A stretch of DNA of 64,000 bases from Opitutia bacterium (GTDB taxonomy: Bacteria; Verrucomicrobiota; Verrucomicrobiia; Opitutales; Opitutaceae): positions 62,001 to 126,000 of the forward strand of contig JACPIS010000009.1 of NCBI GenBank assembly GCA_016187925.1, written 5' to 3'. A program made the translations under genes and the position numbers. A model generated the notes under the pieces. That model saw only the letters and a list, made by a program, of their open reading frames with translations, was not told the origin of the DNA and did not search any database. Below are positions 8,529 to 15,892 of the stretch, one piece after another; positions within the stretch are counted from its first letter, which is position 1; each line of letters begins with the position of its first letter.

Positions 8529-9041
8529 GTGAATCACCGACCTTCAGCCATACATCAAGCCGGCCGCCAGCCCGCGCACTGTAGCGCCGGCCAGAGCGGT
8601 AGTTGCGCCGCGTTCACTATCCTCGAAGTCATGTTTGCTGCGATCATTCTGGTGCTGGCCATCACCACCTCTATCACGACGATGCAGCGGTCCTTTCAGT
8701 CGGTGGATACGGCCCGCAGCATGACTTTGGCCGGGCAAATCATGCAGAGCGAGATCGAGCGGGTCCGGCTCCGGGACTGGAGTACGGTCCTGGGTTACAG
8801 CACGACGGAGACACCGCTGACGATTGATTCCTCGTTTTCGAGCAACGGCTACGTGGCGAACCTCATCGCCAATCGTGGCTTGGCCCTTACCCGGACCGTC
8901 TCCGACCCCGAGACCGACCTGCGCCAGATCACCATGAAAGTCACCTGGCGCAATATCGACGGCCGGACCATGTCGCGTAGCTACACGACCTATTACGGGC
9001 GCTACGGGATCTACGACTATTTCTATAACACTTCGCCGTGA
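8529..9041 (+). CDS. PilV/GspI-type minor prepilin
   Basis: The 170-residue product starts at GTG 8529 and has a class III signal: a short hydrophilic leader, then A|FTILEVMFAAIILVLAITT near residues 28-48, with the essential Glu at +5. The -1 residue is Ala, not the usual Gly. The rest is a small Ser/Thr/Tyr-rich globular domain. It is first in a three-gene plus-strand operon (PilV/PilW/PilX pattern) and its stop overlaps the next start. It probably encodes a minor pilin that primes pilus assembly. Placement in type IV pili rather than secretion is inferred from the operon order. Confidence 0.8.
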   Translation: MNHRPSAIHQAGRQPAHCSAGQSGSCAAFTILEVMFAAIILVLAITTSITTMQRSFQSVDTARSMTLAGQIMQSEIERVRLRDWSTVLGYSTTETPLTIDSSFSSNGYVANLIANRGLALTRTVSDPETDLRQITMKVTWRNIDGRTMSRSYTTYYGRYGIYDYFYNTSP

Positions 9042-9634
9042 CCATGCTCCCTTCCCGCTCTTCCGTTTCATCCGGCACGCGCCGTGTCCGTCGTGCATTC
9101 ACGCTCGTCGAAGTGATGATCGCGTCCACCATCGGGGCCGGCGTCCTCGCCGGCGTGCTGTCCTCCTTTCTGTTTCTGACCCGTACGGGAGTCCGGGCGG
9201 CGCAATACAACGACATGCAGGCCCAAGTCCGCCTCGGACTGGAAAAATTCAGCGAGGACGCGCGCATGGCCAGCGCCATCACCTGGAACGGCAATCTCTC
9301 CGTCACGCTCACGGTGCCGAACAACTATCCGCCCAACAACCTCGTCACCTACGCCTTCGATCCGGATACGCCCTCCGCCAGTTCCACCGGGAAATGCTTC
9401 TACTACAAGACCGGGGACGTCAGCTCCACCGAGACACGCACCGTCCTCGTCCGCAACATCAACGACTTCCTTTTCTATCGGTACGACCGGCTCGACAACC
9501 AGGCGCTGTCCAACACGAGCACGAAGCGCCTGCAGGTCACGTTCACGGCGCGCAGCACCGGGGTCACCCTGGCCGACAGCACCGAGACCGCCATCTCCTC
9601 CTCTTTCATTCTCCGCAACAAGCCCGTCAATTGA
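9038..9634 (+). CDS. PilW-type minor prepilin
   Basis: The 198-residue protein has the prepilin signature RRA|FTLVEVMIASTIGAGVLA followed by a soluble domain with alternating Ser/Thr strands. The GTG at 9038 overlaps the previous stop (GTGA); an ATG two codons later is an alternative start. It is longer than PilV-like proteins and matches PilW in order and size. As with the previous gene, Ala is at -1. It is likely co-assembled with its neighbours at the pilus tip, judged by family knowledge. Confidence 0.8.
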   Translation: MTMLPSRSSVSSGTRRVRRAFTLVEVMIASTIGAGVLAGVLSSFLFLTRTGVRAAQYNDMQAQVRLGLEKFSEDARMASAITWNGNLSVTLTVPNNYPPNNLVTYAFDPDTPSASSTGKCFYYKTGDVSSTETRTVLVRNINDFLFYRYDRLDNQALSNTSTKRLQVTFTARSTGVTLADSTETAISSSFILRNKPVN

Positions 9635-9653: not shown

Positions 9654-11507
9654 ATGAGAACACACCCTGCCTCCTCTCCATTCCGCCAGAATAACACGCG
9701 TGGCTCCGTGCTGATCGTCGCCATGCTCCTGGCGGCGCTCATCAGCGTGGCGCTCGTCAGCTACCTGAAGCTGAGTAACAACTCCCTGAAGGTCTCGCAG
9801 CGCGTCTTCCTGCAGAACTCCGCGATGAACCTGGCCGAGATGGGCATCGAGCGGGCGCTCACGAGCTTCAACCACTCCGTCAACGGCGAGGCGAACGCCT
9901 GGGCCGGCTGGACGATCAACGGCACCGCCGCCACGCGGACCATCTCGGGCTTCGTGCCCGCCCCCGGCGCCACCGGCGTGATCAAGCTTTACGTCCAGAA
10001 CCAGAACTCCGGCTCCACCACCACCATCGCCCCCGATGACCACAGCTGGGACGACCACAGTTCTGACCACGAGTCGGAGCACGAGGAAAGCGGCCACTCC
10101 GAAGTCGCCAGCATTGATTTCGCCTCTCCGGCTCTGGGCGCCATCGACCGGCTCGCCTATCAGACCCGCACGATCCGCCATCTCGCGACCTTCGCGGCGG
10201 GCGGTGTCCGCGCCGTCTGGCACCAACCCGTGCTCATCAGCCTGGCCGCCGGCATCCGTCCGGTCGCCAGCCTGGCTTGGGCCGGTGGACTCCCTGTCCT
10301 CGCCACCCTCGGTGGCACAGGCGACTCCGACGACGATCACAGCTACAGCGACGACCACCTGAGCGACAACCATGGCGCCGACAATCATTCCGACGACGAT
10401 CATGACACTCCCTCGCCCACGGTGAGCACGCCCGTGACTTCCAGCACCATCCTCATCGTCGCCAAGGCCATCATCACGCCCAACGACGGCAGCAGCCCCT
10501 TCGTCAAAATGATCGAGGTGCAGGTCGCCCAGCGCTCCACCTGGGGCTACGGTTTGGTCGGCCGCTCCTCCGTCTCCCTCGACAGCAACGCCACCGCCGA
10601 CAGCTGGAGCTCCGACCCCGACAACGATCCCGCCACCGCCGTCGTGCCCTACTCCTCCACTGTCCGCCGCGACAACGGCACCGTCGGCGTCGTCAGCGCA
10701 GCCAACGACGCCCTCTCGCTCGGCTCGAATGCCTCCATCTACGGCACGGTCAACACCGGCGGCGGCACGATCACCTACGACAGCAACGTCCGCGTTTACA
10801 GCGCCACCAGCCCGGCCAGCCCCAAGGTCGATCCCTCCCGCGTGCACCGCGACTTCAAGTTCACCTTCCCGGCCATCAGCGAGCCCACCCCCACCGTGAC
10901 CAACCCCATCACCGTCTCGGTCACGAACAACCGCACCTTCCCCGACACGGCGACCGACCACCCGAATCCCGCCGACGGGAAATACTATTACGTCTTCGCT
11001 GACGGCACGGAGATCAACCTCGACAGCAACAAGAACCTGACCATCGCCGACAAGGTCGTCTGGATTTTCCGGAATCACAACGGCGCCTACACCATCCAGA
11101 CCAGCTCGAACGCCGACTTCCTCTTCTCCGGCACCACCAGCACCCTGGACATCTACACCAACGGCAACATCAAGCTCGACAGCAACTGCGACATCAACTC
11201 CGGCGGCCAGCCCAGCCGTTTCAAGATCTACGGCACCAATCCGAGCACCCAGTCGCTCGTCATGTCCAGCAACGCCACCATCAGCGGCGTGCTCTACTCG
11301 CCGAACGCCAGCTACAGCATCGACAGCAACTGCCGCCTTTACGGTTCCGTCGTCGCCAACAGCATCCACATGGATAGCCAGGCCGCCTTCCACTACGACG
11401 AGGCCCTCGGTCTCTTCGGCAGCGGCAATCCCTTCCGCGTCAGCAGCTGGCGCGAACTCAAATCCGCCGCCGAGCGCGACGCCTACGCCACCCAATTCAA
11501 CTTCTGA
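9654..11507 (+). CDS. PilX-like pilus assembly protein with His/Asp-rich inserts and DSN repeats
   Basis: This 617-residue protein opens like PilX: a hydrophilic start, then GSVLIVAMLLAALISVALVSY (about 17-37) without a canonical FTxxE cleavage motif, followed by an amphipathic helix (SAMNLAEMGIERAL). Two acidic His-rich stretches lie at 127-150 and 222-251, built from DDH, SDH and DDDH units. From about residue 308 a D-S-N motif recurs (SLDSNA, YDSNV, LDSNK, LDSNC, IDSNC), spaced as in a beta-helix or solenoid. The N-terminus supports inner-membrane anchoring in a pilus tip complex. The metal-binding idea for the inserts is inference. The gene ends the operon and is followed by a terminator. 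Confidence 0.75.
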   Translation: MRTHPASSPFRQNNTRGSVLIVAMLLAALISVALVSYLKLSNNSLKVSQRVFLQNSAMNLAEMGIERALTSFNHSVNGEANAWAGWTINGTAATRTISGFVPAPGATGVIKLYVQNQNSGSTTTIAPDDHSWDDHSSDHESEHEESGHSEVASIDFASPALGAIDRLAYQTRTIRHLATFAAGGVRAVWHQPVLISLAAGIRPVASLAWAGGLPVLATLGGTGDSDDDHSYSDDHLSDNHGADNHSDDDHDTPSPTVSTPVTSSTILIVAKAIITPNDGSSPFVKMIEVQVAQRSTWGYGLVGRSSVSLDSNATADSWSSDPDNDPATAVVPYSSTVRRDNGTVGVVSAANDALSLGSNASIYGTVNTGGGTITYDSNVRVYSATSPASPKVDPSRVHRDFKFTFPAISEPTPTVTNPITVSVTNNRTFPDTATDHPNPADGKYYYVFADGTEINLDSNKNLTIADKVVWIFRNHNGAYTIQTSSNADFLFSGTTSTLDIYTNGNIKLDSNCDINSGGQPSRFKIYGTNPSTQSLVMSSNATISGVLYSPNASYSIDSNCRLYGSVVANSIHMDSQAAFHYDEALGLFGSGNPFRVSSWRELKSAAERDAYATQFNF

Positions 11508-11567: not shown

Positions 11568-12107
11568 TCAACGCAACTTCAGCCCGCGTCCGCCCAGCAG
11601 CAGCCCGCCGATCACCAGCGCGCCCGCCACGGGCGCCAGGGCCAGCAGCGCCCGGCCGGCGAAGACACTGCCCAGCAGCGCCAGCACCAATCCAACGACG
11701 TAGCCGTTGTTTTCATGCAGCAGGAGCAGCTTCGTCTGCGCGAAGCGCGCCGCCATATAAGGAAAGAACGCTCCCGCCAGCGCCCCGCCCACGGCCACGC
11801 CGCCCGCCACCACCGGCAGCACCGACCAGTCGTAGGGCCGCGCCGCCAGCACCCAGTAGGCGAGGTAATAGCCCAGCGGCGCCAGCGCCACCAATCGCGG
11901 GAACGTTCGCGGCGACGCCGCGTTCAGGCCCGCCAGGAAACCCACCAGCCAGCAGAACAGCACGGCGAAGAACGCCTCCGCCCGGCTCGTGAGCCGCACC
12001 TCCAGCAGGAAGAAATACGCGAACTGCAACAGCGCGAGCCACAGCCCGGTCAGGAAGGCGAGCACCGTGTCGCGCCAGCCGTGGGAAGTCTGCGCCGGCT
12101 CAGTCAT
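11568..12107 (-). CDS. Small multi-pass membrane protein, module A partner
   Basis: The 179-residue protein starts at ATG 12107 (MTEPAQTSHG), overlapping the upstream gene's stop by 8 bases. About six hydrophobic helices are visible. The motifs RPYDWSVLP and HENNGYVVGLVLALLG recur in altered form in the protein at 15317-15892 (HPYDLGMLP, VENTGFVLGLLLTVLG), so the two are paralogs. It is translationally coupled to the membrane-bound synthase-like protein, suggesting a dedicated partner. I do not recognise a named family. An alternative start 15 codons upstream adds only basic residues. Confidence 0.7.
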   Translation of the reverse strand: MTEPAQTSHGWRDTVLAFLTGLWLALLQFAYFFLLEVRLTSRAEAFFAVLFCWLVGFLAGLNAASPRTFPRLVALAPLGYYLAYWVLAARPYDWSVLPVVAGGVAVGGALAGAFFPYMAARFAQTKLLLLHENNGYVVGLVLALLGSVFAGRALLALAPVAGALVIGGLLLGGRGLKLR

Positions 12108-13551
12108 AGATGAGGTCCCCCACGTTGGCCGTCGTGATGATCTTCTCCTCACTGACCAGCTCCTTGATCATGGCCCGGGTGTAGATGCGCACCTGGCCAC
12201 GCCAGGCTGGGTCGATCGCCTGCCGCAGCTCCTCCACGCCCGGCTCCCGCAGTCCGGGCCCGCCACCGTAGAAATACGCCGCATCCCGGAGCACGAACAC
12301 GAAGTAGTGCTCGAACACCCGGTCGAGCGTCGCCAGCACCCGCCGGCCGTAGGGCGAACGCGCCGACACCGGCGTGAGCGACGAGATGGAGAAGATGCCG
12401 TCCGGCTCCAGCCGCGCCTTCGCCAGCCGGAAAAACTCCTCGGTGTAAGTCAGCGCCACCTGTCGCGAGCGCGCCGGCGGGATATCGTGCAACATGAGCC
12501 CGAATCGCTCGGGCGTGTTCGCCACCCAGTGCTTCGCGTCGTCAGGCGTGAACGTCCAGTTGTGCAGCTCGTCGAGCCGGTTGTAGTCGCCGAAATACCG
12601 GTGCGACGCCCGGAAAACCTCCGGATCGATATCCACGATCCGCACCGACGGCACGAAGCCGCCGATGCGCCCGACGGTCGACATCGAGCCGCAGCCGAGC
12701 ACCGCCGTGGCGGGCCGCCCGAGCAGGCGCGCCGGGTATTCCGCCACGAAGTACGCGTAGACGCGCCGCGGATCGCCGCCGAACTGCCGCTTGCCGTTGA
12801 GCAGCAGCCGGTGGTCCCGCCCGCTGCGCACGACCTCGATCTTGTGATAGGGCGTGTAACGCGCCAACAGCACCTCGTCGACCTGCCAGCCGTAGAAACG
12901 CGCGTCGAACCAGCCCGCGGCCGCCCGGTCCCAGGCGCCGAAATTCGCCAGATAAACACCCGCCAGCAGCGCCAGCCCGGCCGTCATCCACCGGCCCGCG
13001 CCCGCTGTCACGGCCAGCGCCAGGTAGCTGGCAAAATACGCGCCCAGCACGCACTCGTGCGCGATCGGAGCCAGCACCGGCACCAGCAGCAGGCCCAGCA
13101 ACGAGCCGGCGATCTCCACCGAATAGCTGCGGCGCAGCCCGCCGCCGGCCGCGAGCGCCCGCGGGAGAAAAACCGCCGGCACCGAGGTGACGCCCGTCGC
13201 GACCACCACCAGCACGACGGAGCCCGCCGCAAAGCCTCCCGCTGATTTTTCCACGACGTAATACAGCGCCTGCATCCCCACGAGCAGCGCCATCTGCACC
13301 ACGAGGCACACCGGCAGCGCCGCGCGCACGAAGCCCGCCGACAGCCGGTCCGAGACGAAATACCCGAGCGACACGCCGAGAAAATACGCCAGCGAGAACA
13401 CGATCACCGCGATCTCCTCGTGCCGCAGCGCCACCGTCAGGTGCTGCACGAGGATGAAATTCAGCAGCATCAGGTTCACCCCCGCCAGCAGCAGCGTCCA
13501 CTCGCCCCGGCCCGCGGGCCACCATGACTTCAGGACCGCCCGGCTGGTCAT
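12100..13551 (-). CDS. Membrane-anchored spermidine-synthase-like protein, module A
   Basis: The 483-residue protein starts at ATG 13551. Roughly residues 18-210 are hydrophobic with about seven membrane spans, including YFLGVSLGYFVSDRLS and YSVEIAGSLLGLLL. The second half resembles the spermidine synthase / SAM-binding Rossmann fold: a substrate strand (YTPYHKIEVV, LLLNGKRQFG), TAVLGCGSMSTVG, RIVDIDPEVF, LMLHDIPP and YTEEFFRLAKARLEPDGIFS. This architecture matches proteins annotated as 'fused MFS/spermidine synthase'. The GGGDG motif of true synthases is altered, so polyamine synthesis is doubtful. It pairs with the small membrane protein downstream and diverges from its own paralog at 13705. 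Confidence 0.75.
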   Translation of the reverse strand: MTSRAVLKSWWPAGRGEWTLLLAGVNLMLLNFILVQHLTVALRHEEIAVIVFSLAYFLGVSLGYFVSDRLSAGFVRAALPVCLVVQMALLVGMQALYYVVEKSAGGFAAGSVVLVVVATGVTSVPAVFLPRALAAGGGLRRSYSVEIAGSLLGLLLVPVLAPIAHECVLGAYFASYLALAVTAGAGRWMTAGLALLAGVYLANFGAWDRAAAGWFDARFYGWQVDEVLLARYTPYHKIEVVRSGRDHRLLLNGKRQFGGDPRRVYAYFVAEYPARLLGRPATAVLGCGSMSTVGRIGGFVPSVRIVDIDPEVFRASHRYFGDYNRLDELHNWTFTPDDAKHWVANTPERFGLMLHDIPPARSRQVALTYTEEFFRLAKARLEPDGIFSISSLTPVSARSPYGRRVLATLDRVFEHYFVFVLRDAAYFYGGGPGLREPGVEELRQAIDPAWRGQVRIYTRAMIKELVSEEKIITTANVGDLIYD

Positions 13552-13704
13552 GCGACAGCCGGCTTCACCGGCGCGAGAAAATGCAAATGCGGTCCTGGCA
13601 CCCGGCCAAGCTAGCGGATGCCGGCCGGGATTGTCGTGCAAAATCTTGCACGCCGCCGGCACTTCGTTGTCATGGCGGGCGCGTCCCCCGCCACCCGACA
13701 ACTG

Positions 13705-15312
13705 ATGACCGGCTCCGCCTCCCTCCCCGTCCCCGCCGCGCCCGCCGGCCGCGCCCGCCCGGCCTGGATCCTGGCCATCGCCGGCGCCAACCTGACGGTC
13801 ATCCAGTTCGTGGCCATGCGCGAGTTCGCCTCGCTGCTGGGCTCGAACGAACTGGTCACATTGCTCGTGACGGCAGGCTACTTTCTCGGGCTCTCCGCCG
13901 GCTATCTGGTCTCGGACCGGCTCTCGCGGCGCGCGCTGCTCGCCCTTGGGGCCGCCACGCTCGCGCTGCACGCCAGCCTGCCGTTCTCGGCGCGCTGGGT
14001 CGTCGGTGCGCTGGTCGAGGCGGGTTTCGGCGGCGTGGTGCCGCCGCTGGTGTTCCTGCTGGTCTTCGCGGGCATCACACCGTTCTACGCCGTGTTCCTG
14101 CCGCGGCTGGTGGCGGAGGCGGGCCCGCCGGCGGGCGACTCCTCGCCGCTCGTGCGCCTCTACGCCATCGAGCTCGCGGGCGGCGCGCTCGGCTTGCTGC
14201 TGGTCGTGCTGGTGACCCCGGCACGCATGTCGTGGTTGCTCGCGTTGCACCTGGCCGGCCTCGTCGCGCTGTTGCTGCTGTTCGCGCAACCGCGCCGCCC
14301 GGGTGCGTTTCTCCTTTGCGCACTGCCGCCGGCCTATCTGCTCGTGTGGCCGGCACTGGACCGCTCCAGCCTGGCCGGTTTCTACGCGCATGCGCTCGGC
14401 CGGCACTCGCCCGTCGTGCTCGCGTCGGAGTTCTCTCCCTACCAGCGCGTCGACCTGCTGCGGGCCGACACCCCGCGCGGCCCGGCAACCTATCTCTACC
14501 TCAACGGCAACCTGCTCTACGGCACCCGCGCGCTGCACCAGCACAACCTGATGGTCTCGATCCTGCCGCGGCTCGTGGCCGATGTCGGCCGGCCGGGCGT
14601 GCCGCTCCAGACGCTCGTGATCGCCGGCGGTTCGCTCGACAGCGCGCGCCATCTCGCGCCGCTGCCCGGCCGCGTGCGCCTCGTGGAGATCGACGAAGCC
14701 GTCGTGCGGCTGACGCGCGCGCTCATCCAGGAGCCGCGGGGCGGCTTCCCGGCGAACTGGGATCTCTCCATCGACGACGGCAAGCACTTCCTCGGCAACT
14801 GGACCGGCGCGCCGTTCGATGTCATCGCGGTCGACATCCCGGTGCCGTCGCACGTGCAGACGGCCATGCTGCATTCCGAGCGTTTCTTTTCGCTGGCGCG
14901 CTCGCGCCTGCAGCCCGGCGGCATCTTCTCCATCTCGCTGGCCGGCCGGCTCAACACCCGGTCCGACGGCGCGCCTGACGCCTCCGAACATCTCGCGCAC
15001 CGGATCGCGGCCGGCCTGCTGGCCAGTTTCCGGCACGTCGCCGTGGTGCATGCCGATTCGACGGATTTCGCCTGGGCCAGCGACGAACCCCTCGAGGGGC
15101 GCATCGCCGTAGCCCAGGAGCGTTTGGTGGACTTCCTCGACCGCGAGCCCGGCCGGCGCGAGACGTTCGGCGTGCCCGTGCTGCAATTCTTCGACGACGC
15201 CACGATCCTGCGGCGCGTCGGCGCACACAAACCGATCGGCGAGGCCGACCTGCAGATCGTGCTGCGGCTCAGCCTGAGCAAGCTCCGCCATCGCTTCTAT
15301 GCGGAGAACTGA
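13705..15312 (+). CDS. Membrane-anchored spermidine-synthase-like protein, module B
   Basis: The 535-residue protein, from ATG 13705 (MTGSASLPVP), parallels module A. Shared landmarks are YFLGLSAGYLVSDRLS, FLPRLVAEAG, YAIELAGGALGLLL, then FSPYQRVDLLRAD with YLYLNGNLLYGT. The SAM-fold half carries LVIAGGSLDSARHL, VRLVEIDEAVV, VIAVDIPVPS and SERFFSLARSRLQPGGIFS. The glycine-rich loop is further degraded (AGGSLDSA), so catalytic activity is uncertain. A longer start at 13618 is open but has no family resemblance. The gene is divergent from module A across about 150 bases and is followed 4 bases later by its small membrane partner. Confidence 0.75.
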   Translation: MTGSASLPVPAAPAGRARPAWILAIAGANLTVIQFVAMREFASLLGSNELVTLLVTAGYFLGLSAGYLVSDRLSRRALLALGAATLALHASLPFSARWVVGALVEAGFGGVVPPLVFLLVFAGITPFYAVFLPRLVAEAGPPAGDSSPLVRLYAIELAGGALGLLLVVLVTPARMSWLLALHLAGLVALLLLFAQPRRPGAFLLCALPPAYLLVWPALDRSSLAGFYAHALGRHSPVVLASEFSPYQRVDLLRADTPRGPATYLYLNGNLLYGTRALHQHNLMVSILPRLVADVGRPGVPLQTLVIAGGSLDSARHLAPLPGRVRLVEIDEAVVRLTRALIQEPRGGFPANWDLSIDDGKHFLGNWTGAPFDVIAVDIPVPSHVQTAMLHSERFFSLARSRLQPGGIFSISLAGRLNTRSDGAPDASEHLAHRIAAGLLASFRHVAVVHADSTDFAWASDEPLEGRIAVAQERLVDFLDREPGRRETFGVPVLQFFDDATILRRVGAHKPIGEADLQIVLRLSLSKLRHRFYAEN

Positions 15313-15316
15313 CCCC

Positions 15317-15892
15317 ATGGCCGCCGCCCGCCCAAGCCTCGCCTTTCTGAACATCGCCCTCTCGGGTGTGTTCTTCGGCCTGTTGCAATGGGGGGCGTTC
15401 TTCCTCCTCCAATCCTATCTCGCCTCCACCGCGCTCGTCTGGTTGCTGGCGTCGACCGTATGGCTGCTGGGCAGCCTGGGCGGGCTCGCCGCACCCGGCC
15501 GGCAAGCGGACGAGCCTTGGTGGCTGCTGGGGGCCGTCGTCGCCTACTACGGGCTGCTCTGGCTCGCGAGCGGCCATCCTTACGATCTGGGCATGCTGCC
15601 GTGGCTGCTGGTGTGCGTGGCGGGCATGGGGCTGTATGCCGGGCGGTTTTTCCGCTACCGTCGCGACGCGCTTGGCCCGGCCAAATGGCTCTTTTTCGTG
15701 GAGAACACGGGCTTCGTGCTCGGCCTGCTGCTCACCGTGCTCGGGCTCTACTGGTTCGGGCAAAAGCTGCTCGTGGTGGCGCCCGGCGTGGGTGCCGCGC
15801 TCTGTCTGCTCACCGTGCCGCGAATGGCGCCGGGAACGAAGCCGGGCGAGGATAGAGCGATCTTGCCTATCTCGGGCCATACGAAGCGGTGA
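15317..15892 (+). CDS. Small multi-pass membrane protein, module B partner
   Basis: The 191-residue protein (MAAARPSLAF) has about six hydrophobic helices and a basic, less hydrophobic tail. It aligns by eye with the protein at 11568-12107 through HPYDLGMLP, FFVENTGFVLGLL and LLVVAPGVGAAL. It starts 4 bases after the synthase-like gene, so the two are almost certainly co-transcribed. No named family is recognised. The conserved [HE]-x-[E]-N-[NT]-G motif beside a helix could be functional, but that is only a guess. Confidence 0.7.
   Translation: MAAARPSLAFLNIALSGVFFGLLQWGAFFLLQSYLASTALVWLLASTVWLLGSLGGLAAPGRQADEPWWLLGAVVAYYGLLWLASGHPYDLGMLPWLLVCVAGMGLYAGRFFRYRRDALGPAKWLFFVENTGFVLGLLLTVLGLYWFGQKLLVVAPGVGAALCLLTVPRMAPGTKPGEDRAILPISGHTKR

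Follow-up and report, generated by a model that had tools for sequence, protein, structure and literature searches.

A rare cassette of paired membrane proteins with spermidine-synthase-like domains, and its possible link to exported acid/base repeat proteins

The DNA considered here (the window) is a stretch of 64,000 nucleotides from an Opitutia bacterium of the Verrucomicrobiota (contig JACPIS010000009.1, positions 62,001 to 126,000). It carries a block of four genes, designated a, A, B and b, that encode two membrane modules, each made up of a large protein (A or B) with a spermidine-synthase-like domain and a small partner (a or b). This block is one arrangement of a rare cassette, and the computed support for what follows comes from paralogy, folds, matching trees, a gene fusion, the pattern of kept and lost catalytic residues and recurrent neighbors. 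Our preferred interpretation, which we hold tentatively and at somewhat under an even chance, is that the paired modules form an envelope complex that uses S-adenosylmethionine (SAM) to modify the histidines or lysines in the Asp-rich repeats of an exported neighbor. On this interpretation A-a and B-b would be two paired modules of one inner-membrane complex; within each module a membrane body resembling a major facilitator superfamily (MFS) transporter would be built from two halves, one provided by the small protein and one by the large, while the seventh helix of the large protein would carry the SAM-binding, spermidine-synthase-fold domain to the outer face of the membrane. A SAM-derived group would then be transferred to basic side chains, namely histidines in the window, where the substrate would be the pilin-type protein with Asp-Asp-His (DDH) repeats encoded at 9654-11507, and lysines in the single modules of the Myxococcota, where it would be lipoproteins with (DK)n tails. 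The MFS-like part may serve to transport the donor or the product.

The four genes fill precisely the interval (11568-15892) that a first-pass annotation of this DNA had assigned to them, and the three motifs quoted there are found in the translated proteins. A and B are paralogs (33% identity over 403 amino acids, E 6e-34), as are a and b (38% over 146 amino acids, E 1e-15). The description of the block as a mirror image, a-A<->B-b, holds for the gene order and the proteins, but not for a palindrome in the DNA, of which only short inverted arms are left (20-65 bases, 71-85% complementary). The reading frames of A and a overlap by 8 bases, and those of B and b by 14 bases if b starts at the ATG at 15299; such overlaps are consistent with translational coupling. 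The start of B is uncertain (ATG at 13618, 13675 or 13705), the last of these agreeing with locus L001 of a close relative. A perfect inverted repeat in the A-B spacer is a possible operator; it would fall inside the B open reading frame if this began at 13618, and L001 contains no close copy of it.

In Pfam, A scores just over the cut-off of Spermine_synth (23.9 bits against 22.9) and B well over it (44.2 bits); a and b match nothing in either Pfam or NCBIfam. With NF037959, the family of fused MFS/spermidine synthases, A and B (22.7 and 23.7 bits) fall short of the curated cut-off of 40; of two relatives, L094 reaches 37.1 bits and L096 passes with 41.7. The NCBIfam equivalog cut-offs for spermidine synthase are likewise missed (57.2 bits for A and 60.6 for B against 472; 52.2 and 45.1 against 260). 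AlphaFold2 models, which cover B and a, show B as seven N-terminal helices followed by a synthase fold (predicted local distance difference test, pLDDT, 89.4) and a as six helices (pLDDT 93.6), bearing out the helix counts and the fused synthase domain previously read from the letters. The synthase domain of B is structurally closest to thermospermine/spermidine synthases (VIA Z 23.6, root-mean-square deviation (rmsd) 3.4 over 266 amino acids to 6bq6) and its profile aligns to 1uir with E 3e-24, so that by both structure and profile B has a spermidine-synthase fold. The model of the small protein matches one half of an MFS transporter along its whole length (VIA Z 16.1, rmsd 3.5, 174 amino acids), and the 50 VIA matches listed for it are all MFS-type transporters by title. 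Since the small protein resembles an MFS half, and B combines seven helices with a synthase domain, each large-small pair looks in these models like an MFS-type body split between its halves. In the loops preceding helix 7 the mean number of Lys and Arg alternates (2.45/0.18/2.95/1.00/3.18/0.73/1.68), as in a seven-helix protein with its N-terminus inside, and from these loop charges the synthase domain is predicted to sit outside the cytoplasm.

The active site was assessed by counting residue columns over an alignment of 22 large proteins. Positions 330, 358 and 377 are Asp, and position 328 is acidic, in every one of them; we take 328, 330 and 358 to be the acids of the SAM site. In the excerpt available of PMC10968388, the active-site set of spermidine synthase comprises Tyr79, Asp104 and Asp173 (human numbering). 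The equivalent of Asp173, the first catalytic Asp (Asp377 of B), is kept in 22/22, while that of Asp104, a column picked by hand from the 1uir-based alignment, is replaced by Ser or Thr in 22/22. The column taken as equivalent to Tyr79, where the local alignment is uncertain, contains Tyr in 4/22 proteins, His in 5, Leu in 10 and Phe in 3. In DxxDP, a spermidine synthase motif visible as such in 1uir, the second Asp has been lost from all 22 and Val, Pro, Ile, Ser or Ala stands in its place. The large proteins are thus not ordinary spermidine synthases. Moreover, the SAM (AdoMet) decarboxylase PF02675, the one decarboxylase type searched for, was undetected in the window genome (G000, 100% complete); in all it was undetected in 15/23 cassette genomes, G000 included, and detected in 8. 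Because the Asp104 equivalent and the second Asp are lost and PF02675 is so often undetected, the large proteins probably do not make spermidine, and SAM seems a likelier donor than decarboxylated SAM. The loss of the Asp104 equivalent and the 15 genomes with no detected decarboxylase also make 3-amino-3-carboxypropyl from SAM a better fit than aminopropyl for the group transferred, a preference that is a guess.

The first-pass annotation had proposed, from differently altered glycine-rich loops, either one active and one regulatory subunit or a hetero-oligomer acting on a membrane substrate. The letters of these loops do differ between A and B, yet both proteins have Ser in the Asp104 column and their other key acids are alike. 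Keeping the same acids and sharing two losses common to all 22 proteins, A and B give no reason to call one of them active and the other regulatory, and A as a pseudoenzyme is not supported, its key residues being those of B.

The distribution and gene order of the cassette favor the hetero-oligomer. At E 0.001, B has a match in 12 of 57 relatives and A in 15, and strong matches to both occur only in G000 and in G006 (the next best having E 6e-12 and 4e-13), a close relative of the same genus that is the Opitutia metagenome-assembled genome (MAG) carrying L001. Both genomes have the mirror-image block. A phylum-wide draw made without G006 found the small protein in 1/387 genomes. A Verrucomicrobiales MAG (L003) has A-a-B-b, all four genes co-oriented. 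In a Myxococcales MAG (L004, G427) the order is a-B-b, and a gene classed as A-type from its motifs lies at the end of another contig (L070), which might join the first. L002 (G425) has B-b with B frame-shifted, without A on its 4.8-kb contig and with a second B-like fragment on another contig. Matches were obtained in 4/377 genomes of the phylum of the Myxococcales MAG, in 18/317 of the class of G774, in 8/29 of the order of G791 (an overlapping set) and in 5/293 of the order of G426, one of the latter spurious; the small-protein match of G1117 (L161) was discarded as spurious, the protein appearing by eye to be an outer-membrane efflux-type lipoprotein. In the Myxococcota a single module, with a large gene and then a small one, accounts for most matches. 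Two tandem modules (C-c-A-a) are present in L118 (G979), and in L159 (G1092) the order is B, a frame of 652 amino acids that joins a small protein to A, and a. The mirror image is thus not the essential feature of the system: it is kept within the genus, but the genes are co-oriented in both L003 and L118. Plasmid and viral origins were set aside (tblastn with B matched nothing in the plasmid collection, and viral contigs held no relative of B), as was a defence function, for which the PADLOC match is partial and confined to the synthase domain (mad2, 24.5 and 42 bits).

The tree of the large proteins has clades A, B, C (the first copy of L118, with L098 and L124) and D, the last made up of single modules that almost all come with (DK)n lipoproteins, and the groups of the small-protein tree mirror them (a/A, b/B, c/C, d/D), several deep forks of the latter tree being weak. 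The trees were built without L129 and L130, whose large genes are in pieces, and without the A of G427; L131 has no large gene on its contig, the small tree leaves out the fused small protein of L159 and L125, and L123 and L126-L130 are near-relatives rather than independent cases. All six A-type genomes also possess another module, at the same locus in G000, G006, G426, G979 and G1092 and possibly across contig ends in G427. This makes A look like a dedicated second subunit more than a unit that stands by itself; in L159 the fusion, as read from its frame, physically links a small protein and A. As to whether the two modules always occur together or are scattered independently, A-a was never found alone, whereas single C and D modules do occur. 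The paired paralogs, the matching trees, the fusion and the constant company of A (given the contig ends of G427) would also suit an active subunit and a regulatory one acting together on a membrane lipid. We nevertheless regard that arrangement as improbable: A and B keep and lose the same catalytic residues, type-D single modules lack A in the regions examined, and no scanned neighbor points to lipids. As the substrate, a secreted repeat protein has better support than a membrane component.

The evidence for such a substrate comes from the neighboring genes, and the association of the cassette with (DK)n repeats is well supported. A lipoprotein with a (DK)n tail adjoins the pair in 11 loci, to which can be added L121, whose contig stops at the onset of the acidic tail. 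These lipoproteins fall into two types, unrelated to each other and encoded on opposite flanks of the pair: type 1 has a constant 4-base overlap with the small gene (L094, L119, L120, L121), and type 2, with a different scaffold, lies upstream and overlaps the large gene or comes within about 35 bases of it (L096, L122, L123, L126-L130). Counted mechanically, (DK)n is present in 11/24 cassette loci (430 kb), 0/20 control regions (400 kb) and 0/14 other regions (218 kb); Fisher's test, with kinship ignored, gives p 1.1e-5 against the 34 regions together and 3e-4 against the 20 controls alone. The 24 loci count G427 twice (L004, L070) and leave out G425 (L002), and the contigs of L125 and L002 are short, at 4.4 and 4.8 kb. 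The controls, 20 kb each, were hand-placed in 10 of the cassette genomes; the other regions are weak matches (L076-L082, L085-L087), regions with a DDH pattern (L073-L075) and L161, and exclude L083-L084, which belong to the L003 contig and hold its cassette. Two further occurrences of such sequences may be recorded. In L094 another small lipoprotein (L094:7343-7699), encoded some 4.3 kb away from the pair, has CSDDDHDHDDHDHDAHG right after its signal-like N-terminus, and cassette-less Myxococcota genomes (L192, L193, L198) encode an unlinked protein (SEGSGLIDIR...LPSFGG) with one membrane helix by eye and a long (DK)n run.

The link to Asp/His repeats is less well supported than that to (DK)n, and it rests on a comparison of DUF7305 proteins and on recurrence in a second phylum. 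In both the window and L001 the pilin-type DUF7305 protein next to the block contains DDH repeats, and in L004 DHG repeats are found in a protein beside a PilV-like gene (PilV 27 bits, under the cut-off of 52); a pilus-type or pilus-linked Asp/His repeat protein thus stands beside three A-containing quartets in two phyla. Among 30 DUF7305 loci of the genus that were scanned with automatic frame choice (out of 35 matches), DDH-type motifs number 7 and 12 in the two that adjoin quartets and 0 or 1 in each of the other 28. Genome-wide, the DDH pattern matches in 5/13 genomes of the genus, with matches in pilins just in the two that bear a quartet; the others were discarded as lying in the wrong reading frame by eye (G001, G007) or at the N-terminus of a metal-ATPase (G005). 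Matches to D/H in L126, L127 and L130 were also discarded, being outside the likely gene frame. The repeat protein of L004 scores 21.7 bits against HxsA4 (cut-off 55), and its PilY1-like appearance, noted by eye, was unconfirmed by Pfam and NCBIfam. The first of the window's pilin-like genes (8529-9041) has a counterpart in L001 that scores 17.7 bits with N_methyl, under the cut-off of 21.2. Beyond its quartet, L001 has a second pilin-type cluster (L001:13103-15655) with a DUF7305 protein that is without Asp/His repeats; by eye, both of its pilin-type clusters follow a sensor-kinase and response-regulator pair.

Table 1. Features of the four-gene block and the adjoining pilin-type genes in the window.
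Feature	Position	Strand	Remarks
Minor-pilin-like protein	8529..9041	+	Pilin-type N-terminus by eye, no Pfam match
Minor-pilin-like protein with N_methyl motif	9038..9634	+	PF07963, 23.6 bits
DUF7305 protein (PilX-like by eye) with Asp/His repeats, candidate substrate	9654..11507	+	PF23981, E 4.8e-20
First Asp/His-rich stretch, DDHSWDDHSSDHESEHEE	10035..10088	+	
Second Asp/His-rich stretch, DDHSYSDDHLSDNHGADNHSDDDHDT	10332..10409	+	
Gene a, six-helix small membrane protein, 179 amino acids, half-MFS fold, partner of A	11568..12107	-	
Gene A, membrane domain and spermidine-synthase-like domain	12100..13551	-	
Inverted repeat CGTGCAA-AATC-TTGCACG in the A-B spacer upstream of B	13635..13652	.	No other perfect copy in the window
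Gene B, seven membrane helices and spermidine-synthase-like domain	13705..15312	+	Alternative starts 13618, 13675
Gene b, small membrane protein, 197 amino acids, partner of B	15299..15892	+	

A number of observations weigh against the modification of repeats by an outer-face complex. An active site on the outer face fits poorly with the use of SAM, a cofactor of the cytoplasm, and helix 7 is weakly hydrophobic in some large proteins. For the split membrane body, the Foldseek result with the small protein was not significant (best E 0.098) and the hhalign comparison of the small protein with the membrane domain of the large one is only suggestive (probability 2%, P 0.023). With regard to the Asp/His repeats, those of the window itself fail the strict threshold and become visible with a relaxed one, L003 has just a D/H-rich tail on B, under the scan threshold, and the tail in L118 is of the Gly-His-Trp type (GHGHW) rather than Asp/His. 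In the window, L001 and L004 the Asp/His genes are convergent with the quartet and hence outside its operon. Strict Asp/His matches were also present in 3/20 control regions (L134, L142, L150), with a weak coding signal (GC content at third minus second codon positions, 0.01-0.09), and in a metal-ATPase of one other region, so the strict scan by itself gives no support for the Asp/His link. As for (DK)n, the pair has no detected repeat nearby in L098, L124, L131, L159 or L160, the last of which groups with clade D in the tree and yet is without (DK)n, and the loci that do have it are phylogenetically clustered. DNA of the (DK)n type was detected in 82/317 genomes of the class, that is, in 13/18 with the cassette and 69/299 without a detected one, and 20 (DK)n regions hand-picked from cassette-less genomes held no large or small gene; (DK)n runs therefore do not need the cassette, and what sets those of the cassette loci apart is their place next to the pair and on a lipoprotein. 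By eye, several of the runs in cassette-less genomes sit in unrelated proteins.

Much of this would be expected if the repeats were there by chance or by hitch-hiking, low-complexity Asp/Lys tails being common in these GC-rich genomes and the job of the pair unrelated to them: the 82 genomes with (DK)n-type DNA, the locus structure shared by descent among related genomes, the five cassette loci without a repeat and the Asp/His-type matches in the controls can all be read in this way. We consider such a coincidence unlikely in view of the absence of (DK)n from all 34 comparison regions (with kinship ignored in the p values given above), the two unrelated lipoprotein scaffolds, one with a constant gene overlap, and the Asp/His repeats beside quartets in two phyla and in 2/30 DUF7305 loci.

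The main rival to the modification of repeats, which we judge rather doubtful without dismissing it, is that a small compound derived from SAM, either polyamine-like or a metallophore of the nicotianamine/opine type, is built by the synthase domain and exported by the MFS-like halves, and that the repeat protein binds its metal complex or is just co-regulated. The half-MFS fold of the small protein and the retained residues of the SAM site would suit an exporter-synthase of this kind, as would the redox- or metal-related neighbors of some (DK)n loci: DUF3570 (L096, L119, L122, L123), thioredoxin-like proteins (L122, L126, L096), imelysin (L094) and, in several, CxxCH-containing parts. Clusters of DUF3570, thioredoxin and ApbE are described as an extracytosolic redox context in the excerpt available of PMC8238504; DUF3570 and thioredoxin-like proteins flank several (DK)n cassettes likewise, but there was no ApbE or DUF4266 among the scanned neighbors and the (DK)n lipoprotein and synthase pair are present instead. 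Metallophore synthesis would, however, leave unexplained both the acid/base repeats on two unrelated lipoprotein types and a pilin-type neighbor, and the tendency of the repeat chemistry (His or Lys) to track the clade of the large protein; nor was any receptor or second biosynthetic gene seen among the neighbors, which were scanned in part.

The fusion of a seven-transmembrane (7TM) transporter-like domain to a spermidine synthase is itself known, both from NF037959 and PRK03612-type proteins and from PspA-linked operons (PMC11237479, as far as the excerpt available goes). Like these, the large proteins have an N-terminal MFS-like domain fused to a spermidine-synthase fold. The cassette differs from the NF037959 type in that one membrane half is apparently a separate small protein with no Pfam or NCBIfam match, in the doubling of the modules at A-type loci, in its recurrent repeat-protein neighbors and in the sub-threshold scores of A and B. 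In the PspA-linked operon, according to the same excerpt of PMC11237479, a spermine/spermidine-synthase domain fused to a 7TM transporter-like domain, as in A and B, is accompanied by an uncharacterized lipoprotein; the excerpt describes neither a small half-MFS partner nor repeats, and in it we found no statement of what the 7TM-fused synthases act on, its authors suggesting polyamine monitoring or aminopropylation of other substrates. This shared architecture is the ground on which the cassette might be thought to sense envelope stress or polyamines. We find that hard to credit, since none of PspA, CesT/Tir, DUF350 and DUF4178 appeared among the neighbors, for which the Pfam scans were partial and not systematic, and since the decarboxylase was undetected in 15/23 genomes.

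Two other systems invite comparison. In the silaffin-type polyamine modification of diatoms, SAM-derived groups are placed on lysines of charged repeat proteins; the likeness to the cassette is by analogy only, the system being eukaryotic, with different proteins and no shown homology. In the Hxs (His-Xaa-Ser repeat) systems a His-containing repeat protein likewise stands beside a SAM-dependent enzyme, but there the enzymes are of the radical-SAM type, whereas the large enzyme of the cassette has a spermidine-synthase fold. Three features are apparently new, namely the half-MFS partner encoded on its own, the doubling of the module and the repeat proteins as neighbors, no matching description having come up by title or start of abstract in the literature searched. 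The cassette gives one branch of the 7TM-fused synthases a candidate substrate in the secreted acid/base repeat proteins and, with the membrane part apparently split off into a partner gene, the question of the substrate becomes testable with two or three genes in a laboratory host. If the repeats are indeed modified, this would count as a new modification of proteins in the bacterial envelope, and the difference between His and Lys loci would provide a built-in specificity experiment. A broader and distinctly speculative proposal, for which we see only a small chance, is a whole new class of post-translational modification, in which pairs of split-MFS and spermidine-synthase-fold proteins at the outer face of the inner membrane add SAM-derived 3-amino-3-carboxypropyl or aminopropyl groups to the Asp-Lys or Asp-His repeats of exported lipoproteins and pilus proteins and so generate polymeric tails that handle metals or electrons.

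Some loci depart from the simple pair of large and small genes. In L122 (9805-10800), L123 (9412-10335) and L126 (9763-10692) the small partner is followed in frame by a lipobox-like Cys and a single CxxCH-containing domain; the small-partner frames of L127 and L128 are of similar length, and in L096 (14693-15151) a similar CxxCH-type protein is a separate gene. In L098 (1-1346), L124 (7230-10364) and L131 (6848-10045) the small partner carries a long fused C-terminal region that contains more hydrophobic stretches, about 850 amino acids in L124 and L131 and ended by the contig edge in L098; the kinase-like look of this region in L124 and L131 (by eye, from the motif HGDANYADNF...SIDNGRS) found no support in Pfam. 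The large gene is frame-shifted and in pieces in L129 (7531-9521) and L130 (10574-12444), with the frame of the (DK)n lipoprotein open, perhaps through sequencing error or decay. Finally, a long fused MFS/spermidine-synthase protein (NF037959, 79 bits) is encoded in L160 (17-2164) directly downstream of a D-type large-small pair.

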